Positions 16,457 through 48,331 of a stretch of 64,000 nucleotides of DNA are shown here, piece by piece. This DNA is from Pseudisothecium myosuroides (Eukaryota > Streptophyta > Bryopsida > Hypnales > Lembophyllaceae): NCBI GenBank assembly GCA_951799445.1, contig OX637297.1, positions 13,578,001-13,642,000 on the forward strand. Direction: 5' to 3'. The position numbers and the translations under genes were made by a program. Each line of letters opens with the position of its first letter. The first letter of the stretch is position 1. The notes beneath the pieces are model-generated. The model did no database searches, had not been told where the DNA came from, and saw nothing but the letters and a program-made list of their open reading frames with translations.

Positions 16457-16464
16457 ATATAAAC
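16457..16464. repeat. Left 8-bp target-site duplication of the hAT element
   Basis: ATATAAAC directly precedes CAGGGTTGTCC and is repeated exactly after the inverted end at 48,324-48,331. Eight-bp duplications are diagnostic of hAT insertion. Confidence 0.85.
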
Positions 16465-16475
16465 CAGGGTTGTCC

Positions 16476-17224
16476 ATCCCAACGTGACGCTGGCTTTTCC
16501 CGTCGGGATGTCCGTCAGCATCGGTCTGGACGCGTCAGGATCGCGACCGAATGCCGACGTCCAGATTTAGGATTTTGCCAAAAATTACTTTTGGGATAAA
16601 TTTGGTTTACCCCGAGTAAAAAACGCCAATGAAGTTCGTCGGGTCCGTCCGTGCTTCCGTTGACTGGACGGGGGGGGCGTCGACTAGACGGTCCTTCCGT
16701 CCAGTGGACGGGTTTGCCGCCTAGTCAACGGCCCCCCTAGCGTCTGCTTTTCAGAGCTGGCCGGACTGGCCTGCGGACCACCTCTGCCAAATCATTGTTG
16801 TGCTTACTATAGTAGTGAAAGTGTGAAACCTGGCCTTGGAAGAAATACTCAATACATAAGGGAAGGTGAAGAAAGAAATACACGATAGCACAAATATGTT
16901 CAAATTCGTATTTTATTTCCCAAAAAAATATATACAAATGGACGATAACCAAAACAACGTCCTAAATCCGAGACTACCTACTTACACCTACTATCTAACA
17001 CTATCTACATCCTCCGTGATGACTACTGTCAGCAAATAATACCGCTATTTAATCGCTTACTCTGGCCCCCTCCCGGACGTACCAGCGCCTCTATCGTCTG
17101 CTCCACTCGGTAACCCAACATCTTCGCCACCGTATCCACTAGTGCTCGCACCTGTGGATGCCTGAATCGGAGGGTTAGGCTTAGGTGTGCCTAAACCTCT
17201 AATGCGTTGCCCTCCTACTGGCAC
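16476..17224. promoter_or_regulatory. hAT left subterminal region
   Basis: After the 11-bp end, the first 270 bp are rich in CGTC/GACG words, including CCGTCC and GGACGG in both orientations (for example near 16,645-16,710). The stretch matching the right end imperfectly includes 'ggtctg.acg' and 'cgtcaggatcg'. Such subterminal repeats are typical hAT transposase-binding regions. From 16,760 it is AT-rich 3' flank of the first RING-H2 gene. Confidence 0.5.
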
Positions 17225-19371
17225 TCAGAAGTTGGGTTCGAGGATGGTTTGGTTGATACTTGATTTCAAGAGTTCTTGCAAAGGGTTTAGGGATTGAAAA
17301 GAGTTCAGAAGACACAAAGCATCGTCCGCATATGCGTTTGCCAAATAAGTGAAAATGTCCTTAAGTAGGCCTGGCTCATGAAATGAGACATCTAACGCAT
17401 ATTGGTATTGCTGGTTCTCATCCATTTGGCTCAAATGTCCTACGACCTTTCCTTCGTTGTTAAATAGGACATCACCATTGGGGTAAGGTTGAGGGACATA
17501 AACAACTTGCTTGTGATCCCAATGGCCCCCAAGAAGTGATGCAAACCAATTCCTTCTAGCCCTCTGCGTTTCAGGGTACAGGGCCAAGCCACACCTTGTG
17601 ATCTGCTCTACTGAGGCAAACTGCACTTGCTTCAGACTCTTGGCCGGGACATGGCGCTCATGGTGCTCCCACCTCCAAAACCACACCAAATCTTGGCCCC
17701 AAACTTTAGACATGTCTTCTCCCTCGCTCTTTGGGGGGGAATCCACTCGGTGTATTCATAATGACTTGGCATTCCCTTGATGATGCCTAACATTTTGTAC
17801 ATGCGGGCATGGAAGGGGGCCTTGCACACGATGCATCTTTTCTTCACCACCATGTACGTTATCAAACACTGGGGGTGGTACATATGTCGGCACGTCCCTA
17901 GATGCCATCCACCCTCGGGGCCAAATGGATACTGGTAGATGCTACAAGTCGTTCCATCATAGACAAACTCTTGCACATCGGGCCACAGTTTACCGCTTGG
18001 ACCGTTTGGATACTTGCACGTCTTCGTCTTATATCGGAACTGGTACTTGGCATTGGAGTTCCAATCAATGCTGGCAGAATTCGGAAGTTCAGGCAACGAA
18101 GATGGAAACATTTCATCGAGCATAGGCCATGACGTCAAGCCAAAAAAACGGTTGTCTCCGTCTCCGAATTGGGCCGCTACCCTCCAAACCTCACGTTGCA
18201 GATTCAATGACTTGTTCCAAGCCATGATGCAAGCAAGCGACATGTTGCTTAACTCAGCAACCAAGTAGGACTTCTCCGCTATGAGTTTGGAGACTTCCAA
18301 TTCAACATCTTTGGAACTGGAGTCTAGCCCTGCACCCATGGTCAAGGAGCTAGATAATTCTGATATGAGAAGCTGGTTTGCAGTAACCTCAGCCTCCAAT
18401 TCTTCAATCCGAGCTCGCATGGCGCTCTGGGAACTGAAATGAATATCTACCTCACTATGTGCGAGACTATGCGGAGTTGAATCAATACAAACCGAAGCAT
18501 GACCTTGGGATTCTAGCATCTTGATCTCCTCCTCTAACATCTTCACCTTCCCCTTCTCGGCTGCAAGCTTCTTTTCATGCATTTCATCTCGTTCGTTCAA
18601 TTGTTCTTGCAATGTATGCACCAATTTCCGCAATTCAATCAATTTGTTGTTCACATGACCACGTTCGTCAATTGGGTTCATGAAAGTAATGGGTGCTTCT
18701 TTCGTCATTGTTGCATACAAATTTTGAGCCATGCACCCACCATGCTCGACTTGGTTCAACACTGCCAACTCTTCGGGACCCACGTGCACGGAGGACCAGT
18801 CCAGGGACATGGGAACCATGTCCATAGGTACGGGGGCTACAACATCCACCCCTGCCATCTCGATGTCCTCATGCACATGATCCACGGTCGGGTCAATATT
18901 TTCCAATGGCACGCTTGGATTCGGTGGAATGGACCGAATCTTGTTTGGTTTAGCACCGCCACGTGCGTTGTTTGGGTACGTTGTCCAATCCACGTCCTTC
19001 TCCAAAAACATCTCTGCATATGCCATGGAGCAAAGTGCAAATGTCCCGTCCTTCTTCGTCGTCACGTCCCACAATGCCTTTGCGCATTCAATTAAGCGCT
19101 TCTTGTATGCTGCATGCTGGCACTTGCCCAAGTTCGCCGACCCTTGGACAACGACCGTCCTAAACCGATCACGATGCCAATGTCGGCATATGTGCGTCCA
19201 ATCGATGTATTTCGCACATACATTTTTGCTGAAAGGTTGAGGTTCTTCATTCCATCCAAGAAATGCCTTCATCGTTCTGTCATTCAATACCTCCTCATTC
19301 AAAGTAGTCCGGTTCCCTCTCCTCTTCTTTGCCTGCACGTCGTCATTGTGGCCTGTCCCCCTATTCGCCAT
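17225..19371 (-). pseudogene. RING-H2 coiled-coil protein, paralogue A (one frameshift)
   Basis: The frame starts at 19,371 (MANRGTGH, then KKRRGNRTTL) and encodes about 710 residues. An N-terminal domain contains YIDWTHICRHWHRDR, RLIECAKALWDV and MAYAEMFLEKDVDW. A long Glu/Leu-rich coiled coil follows, then RYFGLTSWP-like FFGLTSWP, SIDWN and a RING-H2 finger: C-x2-[Y]-x-C..GTCRHMYHPQC..C-x2-C near 17,940-17,800. The second Cys ligand, present in both paralogues, is Tyr here (codon at about 17,935), which should weaken zinc binding. A run of seven C/G near 17,732 shifts the frame, and the C-terminal domain (WFWRWEHHERH, LLGGHWD) continues to 17,225 in the other frame. RING-H2 proteins are usually E3 ubiquitin ligases; a role in the element's life cycle is inferred only. 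No other break is visible, making this the best-preserved of three copies. Confidence 0.75.
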
Positions 19372-19394
19372 GACTGCAGCTTTGTGGAGTGTGG

Positions 19395-20100: not shown

Positions 20101-20103
20101 CCG

Positions 20104-20641: not shown

Positions 20642-23107
20642 TCACTGCATTGGTTCAAGGCTAACTTTAGATATGCTAGCTTTCAAGAACTTCTGCAACT
20701 CTTTGGAGCATTGCAGACGTGTCAGTAGGTCCTTTGTGTGAGTATCATGTCTATTGTGCAAATAAGAATAGATCTTGTTTAGGACACAAGGCTCATGGAA
20801 TGTTGTTTCGGCGACATAGGTTGACTCCTCTGTAAAAGTTAGTTGTCCAAGGGTTCCCATGCAAACACCACTACCGTCATATAAGAAGCCCTAGAGATGC
20901 GGTCCCCTCACAAAGTATTGGTGATCCATGTCCCAATGTCCCCCAGCAAGTTGAGCATAGAAATTTCGACGCTTCGCTTCTTTGTCCGGAATGACCTTTT
21001 TAAAGACCTCTGTAACTTGTTCATCACTTCCCAAGGGTATCTCGGATACAGTTAGAGAAGGGAGGTGTCTTTCGGAGTGCTTCCACTTCCACATCCAAGC
21101 CATATCATCACCCCAATGGCTCGAGTTGGAAGGGCCCGGTAAGTTTGCCTCGTTGTATTCGTAGTGTTCTGGCATGTGGTCCTCTAATCCAAACATCTTG
21201 TACAATCGTTGGTGAAATGGGGCCTTGCATTGCGCACACCTTCTTCTTGTGACCATGTGCAAAATGAGGCATCCGGGGTGGTACACATGGGGACATGTAC
21301 CTAGGCTCCATCTGCCCTCGGGGCCGAAAGGCTCAAGACAAATTATACATGTCGTCCCATCGTGGACGAAGTTTGGTACCAAGGGCCACAAGAGAGGGTG
21401 AGGGCCACGGTGACCCTCACCCACATAGGTGTAACAGGCCATGTTGTACTGGAACTCAAGGGATGGATCACGGTTCCAATCAATGCTCTTGTTCACAACG
21501 CCGTCATGCGCCGGTAACGTCTCAGGAAACATGTTTTGTAGAATAGGCCATGACGTCAAGCCAAAATAGCGCTGGCCATGGTCACCAAATTGAGTGGCCA
21601 CTTTCTTCAATTCACGTTGAAGTTGTTGTGATTCGTTCATCGCCAACGTACAAGCAAGCTTCATATTGCACATGGCTAACATCTTCCTCTCCCTCTCAGG
21701 ATCTTCAAGCATTTTAGCATTCAATAATTGCAATTCAACAATCTGTGCATGCAATGCGGTCTATTCCCGCTCCATTTCAACCTTTCTTGAGTTTAATCGC
21801 TCCACATTTGCTTCAGCTATGCGGGCGCGACTTTCCATAACACGGGTGGCAATTGACATTTCAGACAACGCGACCTTTGTTCGTTGTGCCTCTGTCTCCG
21901 CTTGCACTGCTCGTGTCTGCATGGCCTCAAGAGTGGGTTGATCGATTAGGCCCGAACGTGGGTTGTCCACCGATATGCTTTGATGACTTGAGCTTGGTAC
22001 TCCAAACGCTGAATTGAAAAGAATGGGGCAAGGTCGCCGTACGAAGCCATCTTGTGAATTGGGGCCCACGTGAACCTCTTCAACCACACCATATGTAGCG
22101 GTTGCCACTACGTCATCTAAGGAGGGCGTGTCATCCTTACTCAAGTGACGTCATGGATTTAAAGCTTCATCTAGACGAACCTTCAATCTCCCATTTTCAT
22201 CAACAAGAGCTTTAGCCTTCTCTTGCTCAAGCTTCATATTTTCTGTGTGCCTCCTAGACATTTCAACCTTCTCAAGCTCCAATTCTATCACCACACCTCG
22301 TAGGCGCTCAACCTCTAAACTACCAACAACCATTCCAAAGGATCCATTCATAGATTGAATGGATGGGGTTTTGTTTACAGTGGTGTGCGGCAAAGGAACA
22401 AGTTCATGGGGTCTAGAGCGGACGGTCAATGACGCTTCTCGAAGAACCTCGACGGCCACCCTCACGGATTCCCTGGAATCTTGCTGCCCAATTGCATTTT
22501 CAGCGTCAATTTCCATGTCATCCACACGCTCTTCAACATCTTCCATGTCCATTGTCGTATTGAAATGAATGTTCTCCAACGACACATCAACATTTGCAGG
22601 AATGGTTCAAATTTTTGCCGGAAATCGCCCCTTCCGTTGCTTTGCCAAAAAAGTTGTCCAATCCACGTCCTTCTTCAAAAATACTTCTGCATATGCCATC
22701 TGACACAGGGACAGGGTTCCATCTCCTTTTGTGAGCTCCCCCCAAAGCACCAACGACACCTCTTTTAGCCTCTTCTTCAATTAAGGATGCCGGCATTTGT
22801 TTATGCTAGCCGCCCCGGCCTTCACATGAGTATAGTACCGATGCTGTTCCCAATGCCGGTTTATGTGAGCCCAATCTACATAATTCCGACAAGTCACGCG
22901 GGTTCAGGGCCCAGGCACGTCTTTCCAACCATGCTTGGCCAAAACCGCATGGTTGTTGTACATTGTCCAATCGATGGTGGACTTGTTCCCTCTCTTCTTC
23001 CTGCTCGCGGTATCCGTCTCAGGGCCCAAATCTTGATTTCCTACGTCCGTCGAGGCGACGGCCCCGGAAGACGGAACAATGGCACTTTCTATGATAAAGG
23101 ATAACAC
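20642..23107 (-). pseudogene. RING-H2 coiled-coil protein, paralogue B (six in-frame stops)
   Basis: One continuous frame of about 822 codons runs from 23,107 to 20,642 with no indel but six stops: near 22,904, 22,780, 22,610, 22,151, 21,761 and 20,891. The N-terminal domain (KKRGNKSTIDW, YVDWAHINRHWEQHR, MAYAEVFLKKDVDWTTF), coiled coil, YFGLTSWP and SIDWN blocks align with paralogue A. The RING-H2 finger keeps all eight ligands: TCIICLEPF, TCPHVYHPGC, RRRCAQCKAPFH (about 21,340-21,210). The C-terminal WMWKWKHSERH and LAGGHWD blocks follow. Stops are TAG, TGA or TAA, each reachable by a C-to-T or G-to-A change from Gln, Arg or Trp codons. Transcription would come from the CCGTCC-rich region to its right. 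Confidence 0.75.
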
Positions 23108-23319
23108 CTGGATACTGGCGAGGTCACGGAGCGTGTGAGCAACAGGAAATCAAACAAAACAAAATTCCAGCGCCTCTGACTTCTCGTGAGTTACCAGGCA
23201 AGGCTTTCCTCAAACCAAGACCGAAGAACTCAAGAGAGCAAAGACATGGAAATGGCCGTGCGGAAACATGCTTATAACGTCCACACAGGGCTGTTTAGCT
23301 GCAACCAAATTAAGGACCG

Positions 23320-23960
23320 TCCGCTAAGCAGGTAGTCCCATTGAGACCGTCGACGATGACGGCGTCCGTCCGCTGATCAACGGTCTCCACGTCCAAGAAC
23401 CTAGGGTCGCCCGGCAGGCCATCCATCAACCGGTCCCCCACCACTCAAAGGAGGACACGAGTCTTCATTAATGTCCGCAACCCGTCCCTCAATCGACGGC
23501 CCGTCCGTCCCCTAACAGGCTCCAAGGACGGACGACTTTACAAGAGGGACGGCTTCAGACTTCAAAGGAAGGACGGCTTCGGAGGAGGGACGGCTTTGGA
23601 GGAGGGACGGCTTTAGGGGAGGGACGGCTTTACAGGAGGGACGACTTTAGAGGAGGGACGGCTTCAGACCGTGGGCTTCAGAGGGTGGACGGCTTAAGAG
23701 GAGGGACGGATTCAGAGGACGGATTCAAAGGAGGGATGGGCCTTTGCCGAAAGACATCCTGAATGCAGTCCGTCAAATCGACGGCCCGCCCGTCCAGGTC
23801 GACGGACCGTCTGTCCCCTACATGAATGGACGGGCGGAAGGGAGCAGCGGACGGCCTCCTCGACCGGCCGTCACCGGTAGCGAGCGGAATTCAGCACGTC
23901 ACCTCGACGGACTGCGGACGGCCTGCCGTCTCCGCGGGGACTAACAATTTGTTTGCTAGA
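23320..23960 (-). promoter_or_regulatory. CCGTCC/GGACGG island upstream of RING-H2 gene B
   Basis: Contains many GGACGG and CCGTCC words, including a tandem run around 23,520-23,740 with a unit of about 18-22 bp built on 'gaggagggacggctt'. No protein-coding signal; open frames here follow the repeat. Confidence 0.55.
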
Positions 23961-24496
23961 ACCGGTTTAGGCCTTGAGGGGAGATCTTGCAATACCACAA
24001 ACGGCCTGGAAGTCAACGGCCCTGCCTGTGTGTAGCAAAGACGTCCACGCGCCGGACAAACGAGAATGACGGGACCGTTCCAGTATCATGCATAGGATAA
24101 CACCCATTGCACAATTCAACATATTTACATACCAGGAAAACACCAACACCGCATTGGAAGGAGAATGCACGAAAGTAGAGGGTAAGATAAGTTTCATGAA
24201 AATGAGTGAATGATATTACAATGCTCGCACGATTTCAAAGGAGCCAAAAATCCATCATGGAAGCAATGGAAGCAAACAACAAAACATTACAAGCTATACT
24301 CGACGCTGTGAACGCGAAGATCTCCTGTGAAAACTAACCGGATTTAAGCTAACAGCGACACTTTGGAATCCACCGAGATTGTCAATCAGACTAGTATACT
24401 ACAAGCTCGTGTTCCTCGCCACTCTACAAAAATGAAAGATATGGATTACGGACAGACGGTCCGTTAAGGGCGCGCTCGCCCGTCCCTGCGAGCTCG

Positions 24497-24784
24497 TCAC
24501 GCGGCCTCCGCATCGCGACATTGTTGCTCTCGCTGCTCCGTCCGCCAAGCAGCGAAGGAGTGGCCCGTGTGCAATTTGAATCGAGCCAACGCAATTTGCT
24601 TCTTCGGCTTCGTCCAATTCAGCATCATCCACCCATCTCGCAGAAGCCTCCACATCATCGGATTCCAAAACTGCAACTCGACGAAAGTGAACCGGGATCG
24701 AGCCAACGCCCACTCGACGTAGAACATGAGTTTGAGACGCTCCGCAGGGTACCGACTTGGTTGCCATTGATGCCTCGCCATTGA
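24497..24784 (-). CDS. Possible exon of an unrecognised gene
   Basis: A 94-codon frame with unusual Trp and Arg content (RFTFVELQFWNPMMW, RDGWMMLNW) reads more like protein than the overlapping frames. It sits between two CCGTCC islands. No domain recognised and no splice sites established; it could be captured host sequence or chance. Confidence 0.25.
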   Translation of the reverse strand, partial: SMARHQWQPSRYPAERLKLMFYVEWALARSRFTFVELQFWNPMMWRLLRDGWMMLNWTKPKKQIALARFKLHTGHSFAAWRTEQREQQCRDAEAA

Positions 24785-24919
24785 GGGTTGGGATGACGCC
24801 CTGGTTTACAAAGGAGTCCACGACAATCTCTAGAAGCAATGAACGGCAACGGAAACAATGTCAATCTGAAAATGTGAAAGAATGTGCATGCGCAAATGCA
24901 GCGCCACATTACTTACGTC

Positions 24920-25515
24920 GGAGGTCCGTCTATACAGCAGCCCGTTGGCCGTCCCTGAGGGCCGTCGACTCGACGACCCTGAAAATTAATGTCATTCCTG
25001 TCCTGAGTTCCTAAGCCGTTACGACAGATGTTCCCACGCGCGATGCCCTCAAGTCCAAACTTGATGACGACATGAACGTCCTCCAAACGGCTTGTATGTC
25101 AGAATCAAATGAACGTCGTCGCCTTGTGCGGCTTCTCCGTCCAGTAGACGGACTCCGTCCACAAGTTTGGATTAGGTGGCCTCTGCGGTTTAGGTCCGAG
25201 CAGTGGACGGAAAGCGCGTCTCCTAGACAGCTTGCCGCCCTACGCACTTGCACTCAAGTCCAAACGTGCCGACGGCTTCAACGTCCTCCAGACGGCTTGT
25301 ATGTCAGAATCAAATGAATGCCGTTGCCTGTGCGGCTTTTTCGTCCAGTAGACGGAGTCCGTCCTTGAGTTTCAAGAACGTGGCCTGTACGATTTAGGAT
25401 TTGGGCCATCCCTCCTCTGGACGCTCCGTGCGTCTACTGGACGGCTTGTCCATCTAGGAGACGGATCAAAGGCACTTCGAAATCACGCTGACTGGTGGAC
25501 GGTCGACCGTCCACA
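24920..25515. repeat. CCGTCC-rich stretch with a ~205-bp tandem duplication
   Basis: The segment beginning 'aacgtcctcca(a/g)acggc' at 25,075 recurs at 25,280, giving a period of about 205 bp. Both copies share 'ttgtatgtcagaatcaaatg' and 'gtccagtagacgga'. CCGTCC and GGACGG are frequent throughout. Confidence 0.65.
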
Positions 25516-25791: not shown

Positions 25792-26306
25792 TGTCGCAAG
25801 GTAAATTTTTGGTTTTTTGTAAGTTATCTAAATCTTGGAACGGAAACCGTGATCTGGGATCCGGATTCAAGTAGGAAGTAACCGATAACCGGAAATTAAC
25901 TAATGGAACGGAATAGATGACAATCCGGATTTGATCTGAATCTGAACCGGATTAAAGTTAGAACGGATCTGAGTTGGATCGGAATGGGTCAGGAACGGAT
26001 TTGGTCATGATGACAGATCAGACTATATATGGGCTGACCAATCCAGTGGCCACTCTTTTTCAATCTTCATTTGCGGAAATCTCGCTCCAGCGCGTACTTA
26101 GCCTCTCTTCCCAGAGATTTGCTTTCTTATTTTGAGTTGGTTTGTGTGTGCGTATTAGAGTGTTAGGGCGCGCAGCGCTTTAGTGTGCGTTGCAGGTTTA
26201 GAGGTATTCCGGTTGAGATCGGAAGAGCGAAGGTGAGAAACAGGACGTGCGGCTAGGAGAGGGAAAGGTAGCCACAGTCAGGATCCGGTTAGCACAGTTC
26301 GTGTCC

Positions 26307-28076
26307 ATGCCTCAGCTCCGTAAGAGTAGAGCAGGGCCGTCCAGTTCCTCCGCAGCAGAAGTAAAACTCCGGAAGGTGTGTCCGGTCATTCCAGTAGACG
26401 AGAAGGAAAAGGACAACCTGATGGAGGATTTGGCCAAGATGGGCTGCGGAGGACTGATCGATAAACCCTGGGGGTTTCGGGAGGAGCAGATGATTCGAGA
26501 GTTACTCGGAAAGCTCTCCAACCAGTTTGAGAGAACTCTCCGCGGAAGTCCGGGCAACTGGACGGAGGAGATGTGGAAGGCCGTATATGAATTCCGGTCT
26601 GGAGGTCGAGGGATGGCCTCCTCGAAGGAGGGTTACACTCGGGGGAAATTCCGGTGCGACGTGGACTCCAAGGATGGGCACGCGGTGGCAGACTGTCTGG
26701 ACGACCGGCATCGGAACCTTTTCCAGTTCCTGGTTCCGATCATCCACCCGGAGAAGCCGACAAGGGTGACCATCGCCATCAGGAACCTCATTTTCGGAGC
26801 CCTGAGCGGGGAACGAAAAGTGGACTGGGCCAGGGTTTTGTTCGACCTGGTCAACCGGCTCATTCCGAAGATCGGAGGAAGTAGACCGACTCCGTTGAGT
26901 CCCTACCTCGTCCATCTGTACAAGCACCATCAACTCCTCACGGATACGGAGGAGAAGGAGTGGAAGATGCATGAGTCACTCCTGAAATATGGGGAATCGG
27001 AATCGGAAGAAGAAGAACAGGAAGAAGTATCCGGTTCCAAGGAGGAAGAAGAGGAAGAGGAGGAGCTACACCGGCCGCACCACAAGCGGCAGAAGACGAC
27101 ACCTCCTAACCGGAGAGGAACCCCAACCCCTCCGGTTGAGACCTCCAGCCCAGGGAAGAAACCGGTTTCTGAAGAACCGGGTCCTTCCGGATCGGATCCG
27201 ACGGATCCGTTCAACCAGCTGGTCAACATCCTGAGTGATGTGCGAGTAGACTGGACGGTGAAGAAGCTGATTCTGAATCAGATCAGCGAGCTGGTGGGAG
27301 CACCAGTAAACAGCAACCTGGCAGGAGTGGTTGCAGATTTTATCTCCAGCCCGGACGAGATCCGGAAGCAAGAGGCGGAGATCCGACGACTCCAGGAGGA
27401 GAACGAGTCGTTGAAGACGGAAATGTTGCTCCTCAAGGAGGACATGGCTACCACCCGGGAGATGGCAGAGGCTACCCGGAAAGTAGCGGAGGACGTGAAG
27501 GCCACATTCGGAGCGACCGGAGAGGCTTTCACCAAGTCAAAGTTGTTTGACGAGGGAGTCCTCAAGGAGAAAAAGATATCCGGGACCAGGTTGGTCCGGA
27601 TTTTGACAGACTACTCCGAAAAGGTGGAGTTAGTCATGATGGACGCACGAGAGGCTGCAAACCGGATGGAGGAGAGCAGCAGAAAGCTGAACGGAGTGAC
27701 GTTGTCACGATCGTTCCATCTGTCCGACCTTTCAATGCCCGGATCTTTTCCGAACGTGGGCATTCCAACGGAAGGAAAGGATCGGACTCCCCAGTCAAAG
27801 AAGAGTGGGAGGAAACTCGCGCACACCATCAACCTGGATTCGTCACCGGATCTCCCAGAACGTGAAACAGGGGAGTGGAACCGGAACCTGACGGACGTTT
27901 TCGAGCAGCTTGGAACGGAACCGCCGAGAAGTCCCACACTGAACCCGGGGAAAGATCAAAGTATGGATCTGACCCTAGATCAGGGTGAGGATCAAGAACA
28001 GAGCGTGCACCAAGGCGAAGACGAAGTCATGGACGAAGGAACGGATCAAGGAGTAGATCCGGTTATGGTAGGGTAG
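26307..28076 (+). CDS. LTR-unit-encoded coiled-coil protein, intact copy
   Basis: The frame is open from 26,247. I chose ATG at 26,307 because MPQLRKSR is the first true ATG close to the region conserved with unit 2; the open frame upstream has no ATG. It gives about 589 residues without interruption. An N-terminal domain conserved in unit 2 includes MGCGGLIDKPW, NQFERTLRG, DSKDGHAVADC, PEKPTRVT and LSPYLVHLY. Then come an acidic Glu-rich stretch with a basic HHKRQK patch, a coiled coil (roughly residues 355-415), and an acidic Asp/Gln/Glu tail with DQGED repeats. No protease, reverse transcriptase or zinc knuckle is present. A structural (gag-like) or nuclear regulatory role are both possible; I do not recognise the family. 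Confidence 0.7.
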   Translation: MPQLRKSRAGPSSSSAAEVKLRKVCPVIPVDEKEKDNLMEDLAKMGCGGLIDKPWGFREEQMIRELLGKLSNQFERTLRGSPGNWTEEMWKAVYEFRSGGRGMASSKEGYTRGKFRCDVDSKDGHAVADCLDDRHRNLFQFLVPIIHPEKPTRVTIAIRNLIFGALSGERKVDWARVLFDLVNRLIPKIGGSRPTPLSPYLVHLYKHHQLLTDTEEKEWKMHESLLKYGESESEEEEQEEVSGSKEEEEEEEELHRPHHKRQKTTPPNRRGTPTPPVETSSPGKKPVSEEPGPSGSDPTDPFNQLVNILSDVRVDWTVKKLILNQISELVGAPVNSNLAGVVADFISSPDEIRKQEAEIRRLQEENESLKTEMLLLKEDMATTREMAEATRKVAEDVKATFGATGEAFTKSKLFDEGVLKEKKISGTRLVRILTDYSEKVELVMMDAREAANRMEESSRKLNGVTLSRSFHLSDLSMPGSFPNVGIPTEGKDRTPQSKKSGRKLAHTINLDSSPDLPERETGEWNRNLTDVFEQLGTEPPRSPTLNPGKDQSMDLTLDQGEDQEQSVHQGEDEVMDEGTDQGVDPVMVG

Positions 28077-29276
28077 TTAGGATTTTAGTTGTAAATATTT
28101 GTTAGTTAGGACCGGACCGGATTTGATCCGGATGTGCCTGGTCTGGATCGGATGTTTTCCGGTCTGGCCGGCTCGACGGGGACCGAAAGTTCCGCGTGGA
28201 CTTTCCGGGCCGCTTTTTGTTGACTTTTGAAGTTTTAAAATGTATATAGTCAGTCTCTGCGAAGGAGACTGGGAGTCTTTTCCCTTGAGTTTTTGTGCAT
28301 TTTCTATTGATTGCTTATTGTACGTCTCTCCCGCGCGTGGCAGGGCTGTTTTGGTGAGGAGTTAGGAAAATGTGTGCAGATTCTAGAGAGATTTCTCCCC
28401 TTGGCGTGTTTGTTTTGCTCTTATGTGCATGTGAGTGGGTTTTCTAAGTGTTGGGAGCGGATTTCAGTTCCTCAGCGCCTCTACAGTTCACGATTCCGGG
28501 CGAGAAAACCGTTGTTAGGCTAGGCGGATAGGGAAGGAGTCCTTAAACGCGCTAGAACTCCTGGATAGGAAATTCGGTTGAGTGCCCGATCTCCCGTGAG
28601 GTCTCGCTGCCCTAGTTGGTAAACGGAAGAACTTTAGTTGATGTTGGAACGGACGAGTTCGCTTGTAACCACCTAATTCCGCACGGAGGGAACTTGGCAT
28701 CAAGGTCGTTGTAGTATGAGAGGATCGTACGAGGGGTCTTTGTGTGACCTGCCAACCGGATCGCTGTCCGGGGGCTGTGAGAGATCAAACCGGATCCGCG
28801 CTAGTGTAGGAAGTAGTGGATTAGAGAAGTGGGTCTTCAGCCACTATAAGTCACGGAAGGAGTGGCGGGCCTGCCACTCTCAAAAGCAAGCGGCGAACCC
28901 TCTGATGGTGAAACAGAGGCTAAACTAAACCGGAGTGGAGTAAGAGTACATGTGTGAGGACCGGAATGGATCGGTCCAGAGGAGTTCCAGGATCAGAAGT
29001 GTTAGGATCCTGGGTTTTGGTAGTTTGACAAGATCGAATAGCTTGACAGGCCGGAAGAAATAGAGAAAGGTCTGGTCGTTGTTTTCGGTGTGTTGTTGTT
29101 TCCGGTTTTAGATCTAGGACCGGAAAGGAGAAATTGGATACTGGCTGAGCTTAAGTTGGGAATAGAGCTAGACACTTCACAGAATCTCGTGGGTTCGATC
29201 TTTAGAGTCATTTTGTTATGCTTTAAAGTGGTTTTTGGGAGTATAACAGGGAATTCGCTTACTCTGTGCTGCGACA
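28077..29276 (+). other. 3' non-coding part of solo-LTR-like unit 1
   Basis: 1.2 kb without a convincing frame. It is conserved, in reverse, at 55.6-56.8 kb in unit 3, including 'gtgggtcttcagccactata' and 'ctgtttcaccat'-type blocks, so it is part of the mobile unit. Confidence 0.55.
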
Positions 29277-31315: not shown

Positions 31316-31323
31316 TATAAAAG
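31316..31323 (+). promoter_or_regulatory. TATA box (TATAAAAG)
   Basis: 'cctataaaagggccctc' is a near-ideal plant/LTR TATA box followed by pyrimidine-rich sequence. No ORF of note follows, which suggests a non-coding LTR or other retroelement leader. Confidence 0.4.
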
Positions 31324-36455: not shown

Positions 36456-36680
36456 AACAAGAGCTCAAGCAAGCACATCCTGAAACGTAAAAACAGATAG
36501 TGACATAGCTCAGTAGTGCCACAATTAGTTTCAGTATTTTGGGGTACTTTTGGGCGGGAGTAGTTTACAGACTGTGAACCTGCTTCACATCCTCTTTGTA
36601 CTCACTTTTTTCCCCCCTCTAAATATGAATAAATCTTCAATTTCCTCTTAAACTACAACACTACCCTTTGCCTTTTTCTA
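36456..36680 (+). other. 3' flank of the kinase-like gene
   Basis: No coding signal; T-rich with 'aatatgaataaatc', a possible polyadenylation region near 36,625. Confidence 0.4.
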
Positions 36681-37325: not shown

Positions 37326-40300
37326 ATGGGAGGGTCCCGAAGAATTTGGGATCCATGGTATACCCAAACCGGAAACGGGAAAGTGGAATGCAAGGCATGC
37401 AAAGTGACCATAAGTTACCGAAAGGATCGATTGCTGTACCATTTGGGGTGGAAAGGGAACGACAGTAATAGCCTGCCCGGGGTGAGGTCTTGCAGGAAAG
37501 TGAGTGCAGCGGTGAAAGCCATGTTTTTTAGTTGTAATGGAAACGTGCCACTAGTACCTGTTCATGGAACCGCATGTGAGGAAGAAATAACCTTGCCTTC
37601 CACGTTGCCCTCGGGTGCAACTCGAAATGAACAACAACAGACTACCGCAGTATCTGCATCGGAAGGGGGTGCAAACACTGGTGGGCAAGGGTCTCATGTA
37701 TGATCTTCAGAGGCACCTGGACCTAGTTTGACCCACCCTCGGCCAATGCGGCAATTATCTGTCCAGGAAGGAATGAATACATCGAAGAAACAATTATTAG
37801 ACAAGAAGTGGGCTACTTTTTTTTATGAAGCCAACATACCGTTCAACGTCGCGCGGCACCCTGCCTTCATAGATGCAGTGGCAACAACACCGGAGTCAAG
37901 GGTTCTGTATAAACCTCCGGGCTATGGTGCGCTACGTACGAAGTTGTTGAAATCGGCAAGGGAGGACATGGCAACAACGGTATCTGAGAAGACAAAGGGG
38001 CCAATCCACAAGTATGGGGTGACAATATGCTCAGACGGATGGGACAATGTAACGCACCGCCCCTTGATGAATGTGATGCTGTCATACACAAGTGGAGAGG
38101 TCTTTCTTGGGTCCATTGACACAACAGGGGAATATAAAGACTTAGCATATGTGACGCGCCGTTTGATCGAATACATTGAGGAGGTGGGTCCCGAGAATGT
38201 GGTACAAGTTTGCACCAACAACGCCGGCAACATGCGCGCAGCTGGCAATTTGATCATTGCTCGCTTCCCACACTTGTATTTCCAAGGCTGCTCGGCACAT
38301 GCATTGGATCTCTTACTAGAGGATTGGGGTAAAGAAGACTGGGTGAAGAAGATGGTGAAACGTGCCAAAAAAATTATGAAATTCATAAAAACACACCACG
38401 TGCCTCTCGCCATATTCTGCTGACATTCGCTGGATTTAATATTATTGAAGCCAAATGAGACACGCTTTGCGACCACTTTTCTTATGATAGAGCGCTTGGT
38501 GGAGGTCAGAGAAGCCATAGAGCAGACCATTGTGGATCCTCAGTGGAACGAATATGTAAATAAATTGACTAAAGCCACAACTAGGGCAGCGGCAGCCTCT
38601 GTGAAGAGGAAAGTGCAGAGAGATGCGTTTTGGAGGACATGTATGAACTTCGTGCACATGGTCAAGCCGGTGTTGTTTGCCTTGAAGGAGTTTGACGGGA
38701 AGCGCCCGTGCATGGGCAAAGCGTGGTTAGTGATGAAGAATGTGAAGCACCATGTGCAGAGTTTGCCTGATAAGCCATTGAGGATGGACCTCGACTATGC
38801 CATACGCGCCTTGAACGCATTTAACACTTGCTGGGAGATGTTGGCCAGTGATTTGCACTATGCAGGCGCTCTTTTGAATCCCTTTCTATTGAACGACCAG
38901 TCCTAAATGGATGATCGCGAGGCAAAAGATGCAGTGCTGAATGTGTTGTTGAAATTGTCGGGGGGGAATCAAGCATACGCATCAGCGCTGTCAGAGTACC
39001 AAGCCTTTCAAGATGGTCGAGGAATATTTGGTGGCCTCCCTGATGCCACCACCTTAAATTTAGAACCACATGAGTGGTGGGACCTGTTGGGGGCTGCCGC
39101 TCGAACCCTTGCCCCAATTGCAAGACGTATTTTGGCACAAGTTTGTTCGGCATTGTCGTGTGAATGCAATTGGAGCATGTACTCATTTGTGCACAATAGA
39201 TCCCGCAACAGGTTGAATGTGGATTGTGCAGAAGAGTTGGTCTACATTTACGCAAATTCAAAGACTCTTCGACAGTGTGGTGGTGCAGATCCTACAAAGT
39301 GGTATACTGAAAACATGGTGTCTGAAGACTCAATGACTGAAGCAAACGAGTTAGATGGTCTTGATCGGGGGTCTGTATTTTCGGACCCGTCCAAGGACGA
39401 CTCTGACAACTCAGATGGTCCATTCCGTGCTCCAATACGTAGGGGAGCAAGGCGCAATTCGGCTAATGCCTTTGACAATGGAGATGATTTGTCTCCTGAC
39501 GACAATGGAGACGAAGGAGTCGCTCCTCCAAGCCCCGACATGCCAAATGAAATTGGAGGTGGCCCTACTGAAGATGACAATGAGGTGGTTGTAGAGCAGG
39601 CTGATCGGCCAGAGCTTGAAATAACACCGATTGTAGCACAAGAAGAAAGACCACGGTGCTTGGTGGAAGCGGGTATTGAAATAGGGATTGAAATTAACGA
39701 GGGAACACAGAATGAGGAGGAGGCATTCAGAACCGTTGGCCCCTTGTCTACACAAACTCGTAGGGGAAGATCTGCAAACGTCGCCACCGCCATCACCGCA
39801 CCTGTGGAATCAAGAAGTCAACGCCAACCTACTCCCTTGGATGATCCGCCACGCCTAGTGGACGACCTAAATGTCCCATCTCCCTGCGGATTACGTAGGC
39901 AACCTTCTGGCGACACCCCCCTCTGTGGAGCAGGTCCATCGGTCGGTACCTGACTAGCAACAACAACCCCTGCTATGAATATTTCACTATGCAATCGCTC
40001 TATCGGCTGGTCAAGTGCTCATCTTAAGAAGGTGTCCAAACGTTCACGCGAACAAGGCAACCCAGACACAGAAGGAAGACTTTCTAAAAAAAAAAACGGA
40101 AACGGAAACTACGCAAGGACTCGGGAGCGCAACGATTTGTTGGTATGGACGACTCCACTCATGTAGGGGGACCAAGCACGGATGGTGTCTTAGATACAAC
40201 AGGTCGACAACTTGTTGTGACACTATCCTCTCTCGAACCTCCCTCTTCACGTCATCGCACCAATGAATCGGAGGGGAGCGCTCGCACTACGGCTGAAGAT

Positions 40301-40477
40301 GACGACTCATCATCAGACAGTGGAGAAGAGGATGATGAGATCCCCGGAGATAGTGATTTTCTCATTAATACAGTACTGCGACAGGGCCCAGCACCAGGAC
40401 CTGACGAAGAACCGGCCGCTGTAGTCGACCCTAATGTAGCCGGTCCTAAACCCATTACTAGGGGCGCTAAACGCTAG
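37326..40477 (+). pseudogene. hAT-family transposase, decayed
   Basis: The frame starts at ATG 37,326. Residues about 1-60 resemble a BED-type zinc finger (W..Y, VECKACKVT, LLYHLG). A DUF659/hAT core follows: YGVTICSDGWDN, RPLMNVMLSY, VVQVCTNNAGN, GCSAHALDLLLED, then NETRFATTF. The C-terminal hAT dimerisation region is ECNWSMYSFVHNRSRNRL (about 39,165). An acidic tail and a basic NLS-like stretch after an A11 run (about 40,090) continue in a shifted frame to 40,477. The frame to 39,953 has stops at 37,701 (TGA), 38,421 (TGA) and 38,904 (TAA) and no indel. The second catalytic Asp, expected in the TDNAAN motif, is Asn (codon 38,217-38,219), explained by G-to-A. This copy should be inactive. 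It is the only transposase in the unit whose family matches the 8-bp target duplication. Confidence 0.8.
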
Positions 40478-41026
40478 CATAGATGTAGTCTTGAATGCGG
40501 CATCAGCTTTTCTTGTACCCTGTTGTTTATGTGAGTTGTGTTTTTTGAACCTCTCCGTAAATCTAGTGGACAATGTTTCCAACTACATGTTTTTAAACAG
40601 CGGTGGCCTTTATTCCACCTTGACGTCCCGAACATGCATGTCTATGTCTTTAAATCCTAAACCTTGAACTTGTTGTACATCTAGGTGTATTTTCACTTTC
40701 CGGTCCTTGGTCACAAGGGAGCAGGTTGACAACAATTTATAGCGGCTCTATAGTTGTTGGCAGACTGGACATGAGGTCCTTGGACGGATGCAACAGTACT
40801 CCCACTATGGTTTCCCTCCATCTCTGTGTACCTGTACTTCTAAGTGTTGTGTTTGAAATGTCCGTAGACGGTGATGCAATGAATGATAATTGAATCCAGT
40901 AAAGTCCAAGAACCCAAGGCCTGGTTTGGACACAGGGCCCGTAAATCAGAACCACAAGAGCATAAACCGCGGTTGTCACAATGCCCTAAACTGTTGAATA
41001 TGTCTTCTTTTTTTTGAGAAAGGATG
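40478..41026 (+). other. 3' flank of the hAT transposase gene
   Basis: AT-rich, no coding signal. Confidence 0.4.
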
Positions 41027-41450: not shown

Positions 41451-42241
41451 CAGTACCATGATTAAGGTGAGCGGATTGTGATTACCCCTCCTACTTGCCT
41501 CGGGGAATGACCCCGTATAAGCTCACTTAGTGGTCTCTAGATGGCCATTGTGTTTGCTTTGGAGCTGGACGGACTTGGTTTGCAAAACGCCTTGCCTTCT
41601 AGCTCTGAAGTATTCGTGTTCCGGAGACTGTCATTGTTTCAGAGCGTCCCCCCCCCCAAGCTGGACATCCTTGGTTTGGATAAAGCCTTGGCTTGTAGTT
41701 TGGGAGGAAGCCTAATTGCTGTACCAGTGCGTCCATTTCCTAGCATCCGGTCATTCATTTTTCCGTGGATCAGTAGCAGGCCTACTTCTTTGGTAGGGGA
41801 AGGACAATGGAGAATACCGGGACTCGTGGCTCCGGTGAGAACTTCACTACAACAGCAAAGAAGAAGAGGGGTAATAGAGTGGCATTGGACTACGCCGTAT
41901 TCGATGCGAAGGACTAGGATGCAAAGCCTGGTTGGAAATTGGTCCGTGGTTCATGGAGTCGGTTGCAGTGTTCACGCTTTGTGGATTGGGCACACATATG
42001 CCGTCATTGGCATCGAGATCGATACCCCACTTTTGTAAAGGCTAGTTTCGTGGACATCGACATGTGCGGGCATCCCCGCTTCAAGAAGAGACTAATTGAA
42101 GTGGCAAGAGCATTGTGAGATACAAACACAAAGAAGGACGGACGGTTGACACTATGCCAAATGACTTATGTCGAGGTGTTCTTGGGGCGGACAGTGCAGT
42201 GGAAGACATTCCAGCAAACGCAACGGTCTGGCCGTAAACCA

Positions 42242-45200
42242 TGTCGTACGCGTAATCTAGGCGTAAGTATTTTTAACAACAAAACGTGCTAAGATGACAC
42301 AAGTTATCGTCCCAGGAGATTCCAGACGTTGATTCAAAATTAGTGTTTCTAGACCTCTAAGTTTCCGGACTTTGACCACCTCGAGAGGGGTCCTTTCAAC
42401 ACACAAACACTTTTCCGGAACTACTTCCTTTCCGAATTCTCTTCCGGATCCGGCTCTACCCAATCTTCCGGTTCCGTCTTTCTAACAAGTTGGTTTTCAA
42501 TACCTCTGTTTTACCCTCAGAGGGTTCCTCACTTGCTCTTTCCGAGGGGTAGGGAACTGCACCACTCCGTATCTGACATAAACATAAAACAAAACACAAC
42601 CCAAGAATAGATCTAGTTGAATAAACAGGGTGGCATCCTCACAACATCCCGGATGGCCTATCCGGAAAGCTGGTCACACAGGGTAGCGTTAGGTCCTCCT
42701 TACTACAACGACGGATACCGGACTTCCGGAACTAAGGGAATGACTTCCTAGCTCTCGACCGCTCATGAGGTTGACTAGCCTTCCGGATGGGTGGAAATAT
42801 TCCTCTGGCGGTTGCCTATCTCCGCACGGAACCGCCCCTGCGAGTTCCGGACTAGCTTCCGGACCACTCCTTGGTCCCCACCGGATTACCGTACCAGCAA
42901 TCTAAAGGCGCCACTTTCTCACTGCGCAAGTCTAAAAACTCATCAGTAAAACACACTCAGCCTAATCCGGCAATCCAAGAATCCGGACTCCTCCCCCTTG
43001 CACACTCTCACTTACACATCCACACAAGTGACTATAGACGCGATACGCAAGAGAATAATCCAACGAGTGCTTTCTTGAATGCTTCAGATTAAATGAACAA
43101 GGAAAAGGAATGACAGGCCAACAAGCCGACCTGCCCTTAAAAACCCACAGAAAAGCAGCCCCAACGGCCACCAGAAAACCGGCCAACGGCCAACCAAAAA
43201 GCAAAAAGGCAACGGCCCTGAAGACCGTTCCGGGAATACTGGGAAACCGTTTAACTCCTAAAAGTCCGGAACTACTGGCTCCACATCCGGAAAATCCGTT
43301 TCCGGAACTACTATCCTGGTAAGAATCCTAACTATTATTACGGCTACCCTAGATAGTCACCTATTTCTCTTAGCCTTCTTTACAGAAGTGCCACCCTGAG
43401 ATGGTGATCCACCTGTCTTCTTGGGCGGGGTGTTCTTCGTCTTTGACCTGGTCCGGGGAGGCTGCAACTCTTCTTCCTCCAATTGAGTCGTCTCCTCCTC
43501 CTCTTCCAATTTCGGGTCCGCCTCGTTCAGTAGCCACCGTCCCCTTGGTTTCGGAACAGTAAGATCGATGAGCTGGGACGGCGCTGGTGTCTGCAGAAGG
43601 GGCTGGAGCATGTGAGTAAAACTCACCGGATCCGTCCGAGCTGGATTCAACACCGTTCCGGGTAAGGCTGGTTCCCGGAAAGTGGAAGCAATCGGTCTGT
43701 CAGGGAAGAGATCCGCCACCGACGCAGTTCTTCCGGCTGGCACGCCTAGAACAACGTCCTTCACCGAAGTCGTGGCCGCAAACTGCTTCACTAACGACCT
43801 CCTCTTCTGGACCGATGCTGTTCCGGCTTGCGACGTTCCGGCAATTGTTTTGCTCTTTGCTGGAGAAGGCTGGTTTTGTGCTCCTCCTTCTTGGAGATCA
43901 TGACCCAGGTCAAAAAGGCCTTGGTCTAACCCCTCAAGTGGATCCAGGTTTCCCAACAGCTGCCGGACTTCCTTGAGCATTCCTTCGATCCGGACTTCAA
44001 AATCAACGAGGATGTTCACCACCTTTGATCCGACCGCGTGACCATCCTTCACCATCTGGGAATTCCAGAGTGTAGCTTTGGCAAGAATATCCGCCGGATT
44101 GTCAAACAGGCCCCGGACATTCCGGACCAGATCGAGGGCTTCTCCCTCCTTTGCTTCAGCGGCCATCCGCTCTCTATCCAACCACGGAGCTTGCTCTCGA
44201 AATCGGTCCCGTTCTTGCTCCAAGGTCAGAATCCGATCCTCCAACTGCTTCACCGCTTCCGGATCCGGCCTTTCCGTCAACGCCACCAGGATTTGGGTTT
44301 CTTCCTTCACACCCAATTTCTCGCACATCTCCCGGATCAGCGCCGACATCCGCTCATTCTGTGCCCGGATAGCTATCAGCCATTTGATGGTGGCCTCTAG
44401 CTGATCCGTGTCCGGAAGTGGGTCTCGGGGCTTCTCTACCTCTTCGGCTTCTTGTTTCCCCCGCGCACCCTGATCAGTCGACTTTCGGCGCGTCCCTCCA
44501 ACGTTAGGTGATGCATGCTCCGTTTCCGGTTCCTCTTCTTCCGGCTCGAGCTTATCCGGTTCATCCTCCGCGGGAAGTCCGTACTTCAACAGATTCTCGC
44601 CCTTCCGGTACACTGTCATTTCCGGTCCGGCCAGTGCATCCTCGGAGTGATATAGATGGAAAAGATAGGGGCTAATCGGACTCGACTTCTTGTTCGCGAT
44701 ATTGACCACTAACTTTTCCACTACGGAGTGAATGATCACTCCCCAACTGACCAGCCTGGGAGCCGAATTCTCTCTATCTCCCAGCGCTCCGAAAATAGTA
44801 TTTGCCACAGTCATTGTAATCCGGGTGGGCTTTTCCGGATACAAAATAGGGATGAGGAATGCTAACAACTGCCCATCCCGGGGACTCTTACAGTCACTCG
44901 TGGCGTTTCCTTCCTTGGAATCCGCATGACTCCGGAATACATCCGCGGCGTAAGTGTCCGTCCGGGACGCCATCCCGGAACCCCTGGTTGGTGTAAAGTA
45001 CGCCTTCGCCCACAATTCCGGAGTCCAGGCCCTAGATCGTCCCCTAATCGTCAAATCAAACTAATTACCCACTCCGGAAACCAGCTCGTCAATCATCTCT
45101 TCACTCCGGACGTTCCATGGACGTTTTATCAATCCTAGACACCCCATGATTTCTAGGTCTTCCTCTAACTCCTTAAGGCGCTCCGGATCCGATGGGATAA

Positions 45201-45692
45201 CCGGACGCACGCCCCGGGCTGTCACTACCGACCTCCGGGATCGACTCGCTTCCGCCATCTCACCGACTGCTAAGACAATCCGGTGCAATCGGCACCTTCC
45301 TCCCTTTCTCTCCCTAACACGCCCTAATTCACCACTCTTTCTCTCTTCTAACGCACCGTGGAAGAGCACGGGTAAAAAGAGACTGAATGAGGCTGGCGGT
45401 GGGGTTTAAATACCTGTCGGAACCCTAAGTTCCCGCCGCCGAAAAAGTTCCTGTAAGTTCCCTAGCCGGAAACTAGGCAATAGGTCCCTACGATCCGGAA
45501 CTTTCCGGCTACGGTTTCCGGCAGACTGCGTAACCTAATTAGAGTTTTATCTTTTCTATGTAGAAACTAATTTCTATTTCTAATATCTAAGTCCTAAATT
45601 TGTATTTAAATGCAAAAAATTGAAAAAGTTCTGCTACTTTTACCTCCACTAAATTGTTAATTGGGACTTTCCGGATGATACGTACTCCCACA
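42242..45692 (-). mobile_element. Solo-LTR-like unit 2 (3,451 bp)
   Basis: Begins TGTCG and ends CCCACA, flanked by AACCA on both sides (42,237-42,241 and 45,693-45,697). Excising it with one duplication restores the RING-H2 frame, which verifies the borders. It holds a minus-strand ORF related to that of unit 1, preceded on the minus strand by a TATTTAAA box near 45,405. No reverse transcriptase or internal repeats are seen. Confidence 0.7.
43357..45258 (-). pseudogene. LTR-unit-encoded coiled-coil protein, diverged copy with one TAG
   Basis: From ATG at 45,258 (MAEASRSRRS) the frame gives about 633 codons with a single TAG at 45,061, where unit 1 has Gln in NQFERTLRG (here GN*FDLTIRG), so a CAG-to-TAG change. 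Shared landmarks with unit 1: MGCLGLIKRPW, DSKEGNATSDC, YPEKPTRIT, SPYLFHLY and LLKYGLP. A coiled coil lies in the middle. The C-terminus is acidic then strongly basic (KKAKRNR), an NLS-like end. The low overall identity to unit 1 shows two old subfamilies that kept the same architecture, which argues the protein matters to the unit. Confidence 0.7.
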
Positions 45693-47494
45693 AACCAAAC
45701 ATACTGAGCTCCATCCTGCCAAATGATGACGTGGTTTTGGAGGGGGACGCATTGACGAGTCGCGAAGACGCAAGGATGGTGGAGGCAGGAGGTTCTTGCC
45801 AAGATGATGTGGACATGACGGAAGGGCAATTGAATGAGGTGGATGTTGCCCTTGGCCCCCACGAGATGGCCTTGGATAGTGTGGATGGACATGCAAGTGT
45901 CCACCCTTCTTCTTCCATGGATGAGCACCAGTTAGAGTAGTTGGCAACGATGGATGAAGGTACCCAAGCAAGTCCTGATTAAGATAAAGTCATCCAGCTG
46001 CGTGCACTGGCACATGCATTGCAAGAGCAACTGAATGAAGTCACACAACGGCATGCGGACGAGCTGAGAAGAGAGGTAGAGAAGTCGAAGGCTCTAGAGG
46101 AGGCCAACATCATATTGAGGGCCCAAGTGCAACGTGCAGTAGTTGAAGAGTCTTTAGTACGTGATGAAAGAGATGTTTTTGTAACCGCATAAGTTGCCAT
46201 GTAAGCACGCGCAGAGCAAGCCGAGTTGGAAGTATAGAACATGGCGGTCGTATTGACCGACGTATCCAATTCATTGAACGACCACAATGAGGTGGTTTCC
46301 CGGACCTAGAAGTTGGAAGCTGAAGTGGCCCGACTCCACGCCGAGATGAACGACATGAAATGTTTGCTGAGCAACATGAAGTTGGTGTGCATTTTGGCTC
46401 GCAATGAATCGGAACAAATGCAACGTGAGGTTAGGAAAATAGCGGCAGAATTCCAGGACGGAGAAATAAGGTATTTCGGTATGATGTCATGGCCACTCAT
46501 TGAAGTCTTGTTTCCGAGTGATTTGCCTGAAATGCCAGGAAGTACAAGCATCGATTGGAACAAAGACCCTGCCTTGGAGTTCCAATATAATACTTTGAGG
46601 CGGCAATACCGCGTCGAGGGTGACCCCGAAGGCCCATTGCCACTACTGTGGGTAGACGTGCCGAATTTTGTGAAGGATGGGTCCACTTGCATCGTTTGTC
46701 AGTGTCCATATGGTCCTGAGGGCAGATGGAGTTTGGGTACGTGTCGCCATGTGTTCCACCCGTAGTGTCTAATACCTGCAATGGTGACAAAAAAGAGATG
46801 CCCACAATGTCGAGCTCCCTTTCATGGTCGCTTGTACCAAATGTTCGGCTTGGAAAACCATATGCCTGAGCATTAAGAATACAACAACGAGAATTTGCCT
46901 AGCAGAGCACGCAGACATCAATGGGGGCAAGACATGATCTGGCTGTGGAGGTGGAATCACTCGCACATTGATCTTCCAACACGAAGCGTGGACAAAGTGA
47001 ATTTCAAGGACGACGACCAAATATCGAGGTGTGGCAGATACATGCATCCAGGGCACGAAGCGCAGAAGCAAAATTTTTTTGCGTCTTGTCTTGGTGGCCA
47101 CTGGGACTTCTACCTTGATGCCTTCATCTGAGCACTGTACCTAGACGGCAAACCCCTCTTCAACAATGAAGGGGAGGTACTAGCTTGGGAGGGGGAATTG
47201 GGAGACGTGGCCGCTGTAAAATATGAAAACCATCGGGCATACCATGAGATGGTAACATTAAGTGCCATTTAAGGTTTTTTACAACGGGAACACGATGAAG
47301 TCCCCTTGGAGCTTCTGAAGGTTTTGCAATCGAAAGAAGGGTTGCAAAGTTTTCTGGCCTCAAGTATAGCCCGCGGTGTCATCAAACCGGGTTTGGAAGA
47401 ACCGGAACGTCCTCAACAAATTGTACCTCATGGCGAAGGCACCAGCACGGGCGCAAATGCACAAAGTAGGAGCGACGTTATTATAATAAATTAG

Positions 47495-47780
47495 GCATCA
47501 TGCAAGATACTCGGACATAGGTATCATACGAGTTGTACATAGTGTATATTCCCCAATTTTTGGGAACTTGTTGTATGTCCAAAAGTTTTTTTGAAGTAAA
47601 GGTGAATATTAACATATTTGAACATTTGATGCATGCCCTAAAACTTGTTTCTCTTTTCACACCTAAACGCTAAACCATCACCAATGGCCAAAACAAGACA
47701 CCCACCTTTCTAAGTTCCAATTTGTCCTAATGTTTGCATGATTTGTAGTGCCTTTCCTGAACACCGGAATTTGGGTCCCA
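47495..47780 (+). other. 3' flank of RING-H2 gene C
   Basis: AT-rich with no coding signal. Confidence 0.4.
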
Positions 47781-48312
47781 TTCTAAACCGCAAGCGTGAA
47801 TCGTCCATCTGGATCGTCCCCCGTAAAACCATCCCTAGGGCCGTCCAGGTCGTCCATCAGTTTCGTCCATGGGACCGTCCTCGTAGTCTGTCCCCGTGGT
47901 CCAAAACCGCCTGCCCACACGATTCTTTCAAGGTCCGTCGACGTACTCCGACCCCTAAACCGTCCACAGAACCCCCTGCCGCAGAAACCGTCCACGAAGT
48001 CCGTCCTCAAAAACCGTCCACGGAGACCGTCCACTAAAACCATCCACAAAGACCGTCCTCCAAATCCGTCCGCGGATTCCGTCCTCAAAAACCGTCCACG
48101 GAGTCCGTCAACAGTGAAGGTCCGTCTGCAGGATCCGTCCGCCGTCGGGTCCGTCCATCCGCAGCACGACTGCTGTCATCCACTTTGTCGACCGTGGTAA
48201 CTAAATTTACCCCGTCAGACGACCCTGACAAGTAAGATTCCATCCGGACGGACGCTGGTGTTCGATCCTGACGTACCGTCCGTCAGACCGACGTCCGAAC
48301 GTGACGTGACGG
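47781..48312. promoter_or_regulatory. hAT right subterminal region, dense CCGTCC array
   Basis: At least 14 CCGTCC hexamers lie between about 47,840 and 48,285, many as AACCGTCCACG or AGTCCGTCCTC at roughly 12-25-bp spacing and mostly in one orientation. This is typical of subterminal transposase-binding repeats. The left end has far fewer. Confidence 0.65.
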
Positions 48313-48323
48313 GGACAACCCTG

Positions 48324-48331
48324 ATATAAAC
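48324..48331. repeat. Right 8-bp target-site duplication of the hAT element
   Basis: ATATAAAC follows GGACAACCCTG and matches 16,457-16,464 exactly. Confidence 0.85.

Follow-up and report, generated by a model that had tools for sequence, protein, structure and literature searches.

A 31.9-kb locus in the moss Pseudisothecium myosuroides points to a clade of giant hAT transposons with conserved kinase-like and RING-like genes

hAT elements usually measure a few kb and tend to be regarded as small transposons of the cut-and-paste kind, and their terminal inverted repeats begin with CA(A/G)GG. Among the giant elements of eukaryotes, Starships are defined by a captain, a tyrosine recombinase (DUF3435) located at their 5' edge (PMC12506042), while VANDAL elements carry a dense short motif in noncoding DNA, with tandem repeats as well, that is bound by the anti-silencing protein VANC (PMC5735166). 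In the open-licence PubMed Central (PMC) literature we found no description of a giant plant hAT, or of a hAT that carries a kinase and a RING gene, and a term search of PMC6431247, a review on giant transposons in eukaryotes, returned zero occurrences of "hAT". Here we analysed a stretch of 64,000 nucleotides from the moss Pseudisothecium myosuroides (assembly GCA_951799445.1, 388 Mb; contig OX637297.1, positions 13,578,001 to 13,642,000 of the forward strand), referred to as the window and located at C11:13578001-13642000. Positions 16465-48323 of the window very probably represent one defective hAT transposon of 31.9 kb, with a core of about 20.7 kb, that belongs to a clade of giant hAT elements.

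The element is bracketed by two identical copies (8/8) of the 8-bp target-site duplication ATATAAAC, at 16457-16464 and 48324-48331. Directly inside them lie the 11-bp terminus CAGGGTTGTCC at 16465-16475 (plus strand) and its exact inverse GGACAACCCTG at 48313-48323 (minus strand), so that the locus has both the 8-bp duplication and the CAGGG-type inverted termini of hAT elements, the latter being perfect over 11 bp and recurrent at other copies. Past these 11 bp the two ends are only loosely alike by eye. No further exact match to CAGGGTTGTCC was found on either strand of the 64-kb window, and one extra plus-strand ATATAAAC at 48697 has no adjoining terminus. The initial annotation had placed the ends and the duplication at these positions and had judged a chance match very unlikely; the placement held, and other copies that pair these two ends dispose of the concern about chance.

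The first ~80 bp of the left end recur across the genome with at least 44 matches (the window's own counted) and the right end with at least 41; genome match numbers, here and below, are lower bounds on copy number. At all seven other left-end loci inspected the terminus was retained in 10 or 11 of its 11 bases, next to seven different 8-bp flanks. Two long copies reside on the same contig as the window. Copy B (C11:13173944-13238568, 64.6 kb) has AGTGGCGG on both sides (8/8), and copy A (C11:7061908-7096510, 34.6 kb) has flanks CTTCATAT and CTTCATGT that agree at 7 of 8 positions. In BLAST comparisons the window element was collinear with copy A from first to last base, at 85-97% per core block, interrupted by inserts at differing places and by small gaps, and was likewise collinear with copy B (82-93%, and 76% in a single short block). 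The largest gap toward copy A, of ~400 bp at 40127-40528, corresponds to sequence that copy B does contain. The search proposed at the outset thus did recover further copies in which these termini, next to new 8-bp duplications, enclose the same genes. Five short elements of 188-426 bp (L061-L065, on contigs C1, C2, C4 and C5), picked since both end searches matched close together, also possess both ends, with flanks matching 8/8 in three and 7/8 in two, and are small non-autonomous derivatives of the giant family.

Between the ends of the window element lie, as had been claimed, a hAT transposase gene, a protein-kinase-like gene and three RING-like genes. The RING-like genes are mutually paralogous, and the positions of all these genes were set by matching proteins of a copy from the sister subfamily described below. 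The transposase gene (37326-40477, plus strand; the sister protein covers 37326-40058, and the C-terminal part at 40088-40477 was placed by eye) encodes DUF659 (PF04937) and the hAT dimerisation domain (PF05699), both of which exceed the Pfam cut-offs here and also in an open reading frame (ORF) of a sister copy. Its N-terminus shows a CxxC...H-like stretch, and no Pfam BED match was found in the window pieces or the sister ORF. In addition to the C-terminal dimerisation domain, the residues that we take to be the catalytic D, D and E are present, save that the second Asp is replaced by Asn in the window copy; these acidic positions are invariant or nearly so among 15 aligned sequences. The frame is interrupted by stops at 37701, 38421, 38904 and 39951. 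Given these four stops and the replaced conserved Asp, an active transposase is no longer possible, and the window copy is dead and not autonomous.

The kinase-like gene (34857-36469, plus strand) keeps HND...N and DWG motifs by eye. RING1, a coiled-coil, RING-H2-like gene (17240-19359, minus strand), changes frame near its 3' end, and its paralogue RING2 (20666-23164, minus strand) corresponds to residues 8-780 of the sister RING protein at 43% identity. RING3 is split by an insert into an N-terminal part (41819-42307, plus strand), whose match reaches slightly into the insert starting at 42242, and a C-terminal part (46112-47398, plus strand) with a weak partial RING match. In the window the Pfam matches of the kinase and RING genes fall below the cut-offs (just below for RING2); in the sister copy the kinase match lies above the cut-off and the RING match still below. 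A fungal Starship type was rejected for the window element, as its ends and duplications fit hAT and no Pfam match to the Starship tyrosine recombinase (DUF3435) was found in the 12 of 24 ORFs (at least 150 amino acids) of the interval that were scanned; the same ORFs gave no match to a Mutator-type transposase.

Three later insertions interrupt the element, one more than initially claimed. Insert 1 (25792-29276, 3485 bp) has TG...CA ends, a 5-bp duplication GGGGT and an ORF at 26217-28076 (plus strand), and insert 3 (42242-45692, 3451 bp), which splits RING3, has TG...CA ends, a 5-bp duplication AACCA and an ORF at 43357-45060 (minus strand). Insert 2 (approximately 30047-34227, ~4.2 kb) is missing at this place in copies A and B. 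Subtracting all three leaves a core of ~20.7 kb, in place of the ~25 kb first estimated, and arithmetic from the BLAST blocks gives copy A a core of likewise ~20.7 kb. A repeat of ~3-3.5 kb with a long ORF accounts for 25792-29276 and 42242-45692, occurs again at 55586-58560, and is also inserted repeatedly in copies A and B. Because of their TG...CA ends and 5-bp duplications without internal direct repeats, its copies at 25792-29276 and 42242-45692 look like solo long terminal repeats bearing an ORF.

Better-preserved relatives were found with a DUF659 piece of the transposase, which has at least 151 genome matches, 20 of them forming a sister subfamily at 74-75% identity. Ten of these 20 transposases have a 1076-residue frame with no stop in the matched part, and right ends were inspected for seven copies of the subfamily. 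The left end predicted from the duplication at one sister right end was an 18-base pattern whose sole exact genome match lies ~950 bases upstream of the DUF659 match of that copy. Ends were then examined in 14 of the 20 sister copies: ten have 8/8 duplications and one has 7/8, and these 11 matched copies span 17.9-23.1 kb. Two adjoining copies on C4 are both 21,634 bp long and have different duplications (ACGCATTA and ACCTCCGA), and therefore represent separate insertions and not a block duplication.

The kinase and RING genes recur beside hAT transposases throughout the genome. The window kinase has at least 104 genome matches and RING1 at least 115; for the analysis of linkage we used 100 of the 104 kinase matches (four second stretches of listed genes being left out), 150 of the 151 transposase matches, and 71 RING places obtained by merging the 115 matches. 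Each of the 20 sister transposases has a kinase no more than 19 kb away on the opposite strand, at 5.1-5.6 kb from start to start in 18 of 20, and, by hand comparison of the lists, a RING gene at most 29 kb away. Of 100 kinase places across the genome, 69 have a transposase no farther than 25 kb away, where 500 random placements gave a mean of 5.9 and a maximum of 14, and the same holds for 41 of 71 RING places, against a mean of 4.1 and a maximum of 11 in 300 placements (the size of contig C8 was rounded in both randomizations). Of the 150 transposase places, 40 have both genes nearby, the kinase at up to 50 kb and the RING gene at up to 55 kb. Gene order and orientation vary between subfamilies: seven of the 69 linked kinases show the window layout (2.0-2.4 kb upstream, same strand), 20 the sister layout, and four others; the remaining 38 lie 8-24 kb upstream on the opposite strand and adjoin more distant DUF659 transposases. 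The kinase and RING genes of these distant types are neighbours of transposases, and their membership of an element is a candidate one. As a side observation, C11 comprises 16.9 of the 388 Mb and holds 42 of the 150 listed transposase places and 42 of the 100 kinase places; it is strikingly transposon-rich and, as a guess, could be a sex or heterochromatic chromosome. On C9 (17380204-17501720), five transposase matches with 62-63% identity and many stops are spaced ~30 kb apart on the same strand, in what looks like a tandemly duplicated block.

Divergence between the subfamilies was next compared gene by gene. Between the window and the sister subfamily, the proportions of nonsynonymous and synonymous differences (pN/pS), with synonymous sites near saturation, were 0.31/0.70 for the kinase, 0.35/0.74 for RING2 and 0.37/0.80 for the C-terminal part of RING3, as compared with 0.27/0.68 for the transposase. 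These values point to purifying selection on kinase and RING that is comparable to that on the transposase. In database searches the transposase had 51 relatives, about one quarter of them named to species and all of these green plants or streptophyte algae, while the 15 kinase and four RING relatives had no species name on any. Longest-contig values of 6480 and 15563 were common to two kinase and two transposase relatives, which suggests that the linkage of kinase and transposase may also exist outside this genome. Among viral and prokaryote contigs no relatives were confirmed.

The noncoding part of the window element is rich in a short motif. CCGTCC/GGACGG occurs 103 times inside the element versus 14 times in about equal length outside. 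With gene limits drawn by hand, and with the window element alone counted, the noncoding core has 88 occurrences in 9.9 kb, where 5.5 were expected and 13 was the maximum in 100 random sequences; coding parts have seven in 10.8 kb (0.65 per kb) and the inserts eight in 11.1 kb (0.72 per kb). The densest noncoding cluster lies at 23400-25400, with other clusters near 16.5, 19.5-20.1, 34.3-34.6, 36.5, 41.3 and 47.9-48.3 kb. The noncoding motif density is comparable to that of VANDAL elements, and by this analogy the CCGTCC arrays may, as a hypothesis, serve like the VANC target motif.

The ends, the 8-bp duplications, the collinear copies and the conserved linkage of transposase, kinase-like and RING-like genes are direct observations. 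Because better-preserved relatives carry the same genes and clean insertion scars, hAT elements of very large size do exist, bear their own genes and have moved. It was conceivable from the start that the two ends of the window element stem from separate short hAT elements with a common 8 bp by chance. Short derivatives of 188-426 bp with both termini do exist, and the flanks of one of the four long window-type pairs, on C6, do not match (CAACAAAT on the left, ATTTGGAG on the right). However, in copies A and B the two ends again enclose the same collinear genes, each copy with a duplication of its own, and the stretch between the window ends is collinear with copy A. The chance of an 8-base match at fixed positions is 4^-8, and the pattern recurs in 11 of 14 sister copies at 7/8 or 8/8; an origin from two short elements is thus extremely unlikely. 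Hardly more credible is that the copies arose as segmental duplications of a repeat-rich block and not by transposition. Such duplication does seem to occur: two right ends on C6 (136579 and 118264, inverted) with the common flank GTTTACAC are probably copies made in this way, the five C9 matches (17.38-17.50 Mb) are ~30 kb apart, and some sister copies are close together (C4:7.95-8.01 Mb and C3:0.37-0.45 Mb). By contrast, an 8-bp duplication of its own flanks every one of the 11 matched sister copies, including the adjoining C4 copies of equal length, and the window, A, B and the sisters differ in their 8-bp flanks, indicating different sequence beyond the ends. The reading of the locus as one giant hAT transposon still has to absorb several results that weigh against it, beginning with the dead window transposase and the unmatched C6 pair. 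The right end of copy A has two mismatches to the 11-mer; among the 14 sister copies two have unmatched flanks and in one the left end was not reached; and the joined flanks of the window element, searched against the host assembly for an empty site, matched only the two flanks themselves, so that no empty site is seen in this assembly. The latter search also showed no repeated CACTA sequence at the joined flanks, and the CACTA flank proposed in the initial annotation was not confirmed, as the right flank has one weak sub-threshold Transposase_24 match. Element ends of more distant families were not found in two stretches downstream of distant transposases, which do not align with each other and one of which enters an insert of the 3.5-kb type (ORF likeness by eye). 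The RING Pfam matches are below threshold, the predicted structure of RING1 is poor (mean predicted local distance difference test score 46) and has no fold match, and the motif counts are driven in part by clusters that are tandem arrays and depend on hand-set bounds. Finally, when the window is compared with copies A and B, the three codon positions have about equal shares of the substitutions, with a third-position excess that is clearest in one of ten comparisons and slight there (kinase versus copy A, 18/18/30), so that no selection is visible within the subfamily; an even spread is what is expected for dead copies.

A further possibility accepts the transposon and treats kinase and RING as host genes that it captured passively and that do nothing for it, as in Pack-type cargo. 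The differing gene order and orientation among subfamilies and the lack of visible selection within the window subfamily would fit such capture. However, kinase and RING accompany transposases across subfamilies in which the kinases are only 28-57% identical to that of the window, their frames have stayed long and open in the sister family, and their constraint between subfamilies resembles that of the transposase and therefore argues against passive capture. No recent host donor of the kinase was seen, because the 15 relatives found by a search limited to short-word sharing have no species name. We consider passive capture improbable; the clade has long possessed kinase and RING as conserved genes. 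Of the giant cargo-carrying hAT lineage that had been claimed, the giant gene-bearing lineage is therefore retained, while the present copy is defective and its genes are conserved ones and not chance cargo.

For a giant hAT transposon of this kind, hAT biochemistry leads us to expect that the transposase would excise the whole unit at its CAGGG ends, and that the excised unit would reinsert and make the 8-bp duplication. With less certainty, the kinase and the E3-ligase-like RING protein may be accessory factors working for the element, most likely directed at host silencing or at the level and activity of the transposase, and the noncoding CCGTCC arrays may be the address for element proteins. 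That kinase and RING were kept through deep divergence as a CCGTCC-addressed system of anti-silencing or transposition control, a counterpart of VANC that would have arisen independently in hAT, is a tentative proposal drawn by analogy, and we hold it to be possible but rather doubtful.

Elsewhere in the window, a tandem array with a 176-bp unit and ~7 copies occupies 2361-3597, with related copies at 448-835. An ORF with an NLI-interacting-factor-like phosphatase domain lies to the left of the element (13321-14121), and a 160-bp inverted repeat at 61853-62192, whose arms are 96% complementary and 20 bp apart, resembles a miniature inverted-repeat transposable element or a hairpin.

hATs with cores of ~18-21 kb, clear insertion scars and a recurring kinase-RING pair thus occupy many places in one 388-Mb genome, which raises the size of hAT mobile units and supplies an accessory gene set under selection. 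They may offer a testable system in which a transposon would counter host control by phosphorylation or ubiquitination, combined with sequence-specific arrays in its noncoding DNA. Like the giant elements Starship (fungi; defined in PMC12506042) and Teratorn (medaka), they are eukaryotic and bear extra genes; however, Starships use a tyrosine recombinase and Teratorn is a 180-kb piggyBac fusion element, whereas the present elements combine a hAT transposase with a few recurring genes. ToxhAT, a large gene-carrying fungal element of 14 kb once called hAT, has been moved by the authors of PMC12506042 to a Tc1/mariner-like type, whose duplication is TA. VANDAL Mutator-like elements are similar in their large size, accessory genes and dense, partly tandem short motif in noncoding parts (PMC5735166), a motif density that the window element has as well; they differ in belonging to the Mutator superfamily, with VANB and VANC as accessory genes in place of kinase and RING, while the transposase of the window element is a hAT transposase and binding to CCGTCC is putative. 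The closest likeness is to plant hAT elements of the Ac/Ds type, which have the same DUF659 plus hAT dimerisation transposase, CAGGG-type inverted termini and 8-bp duplications, and from which the present elements differ in a core of ~18-21 kb with conserved kinase-like and RING-like genes.

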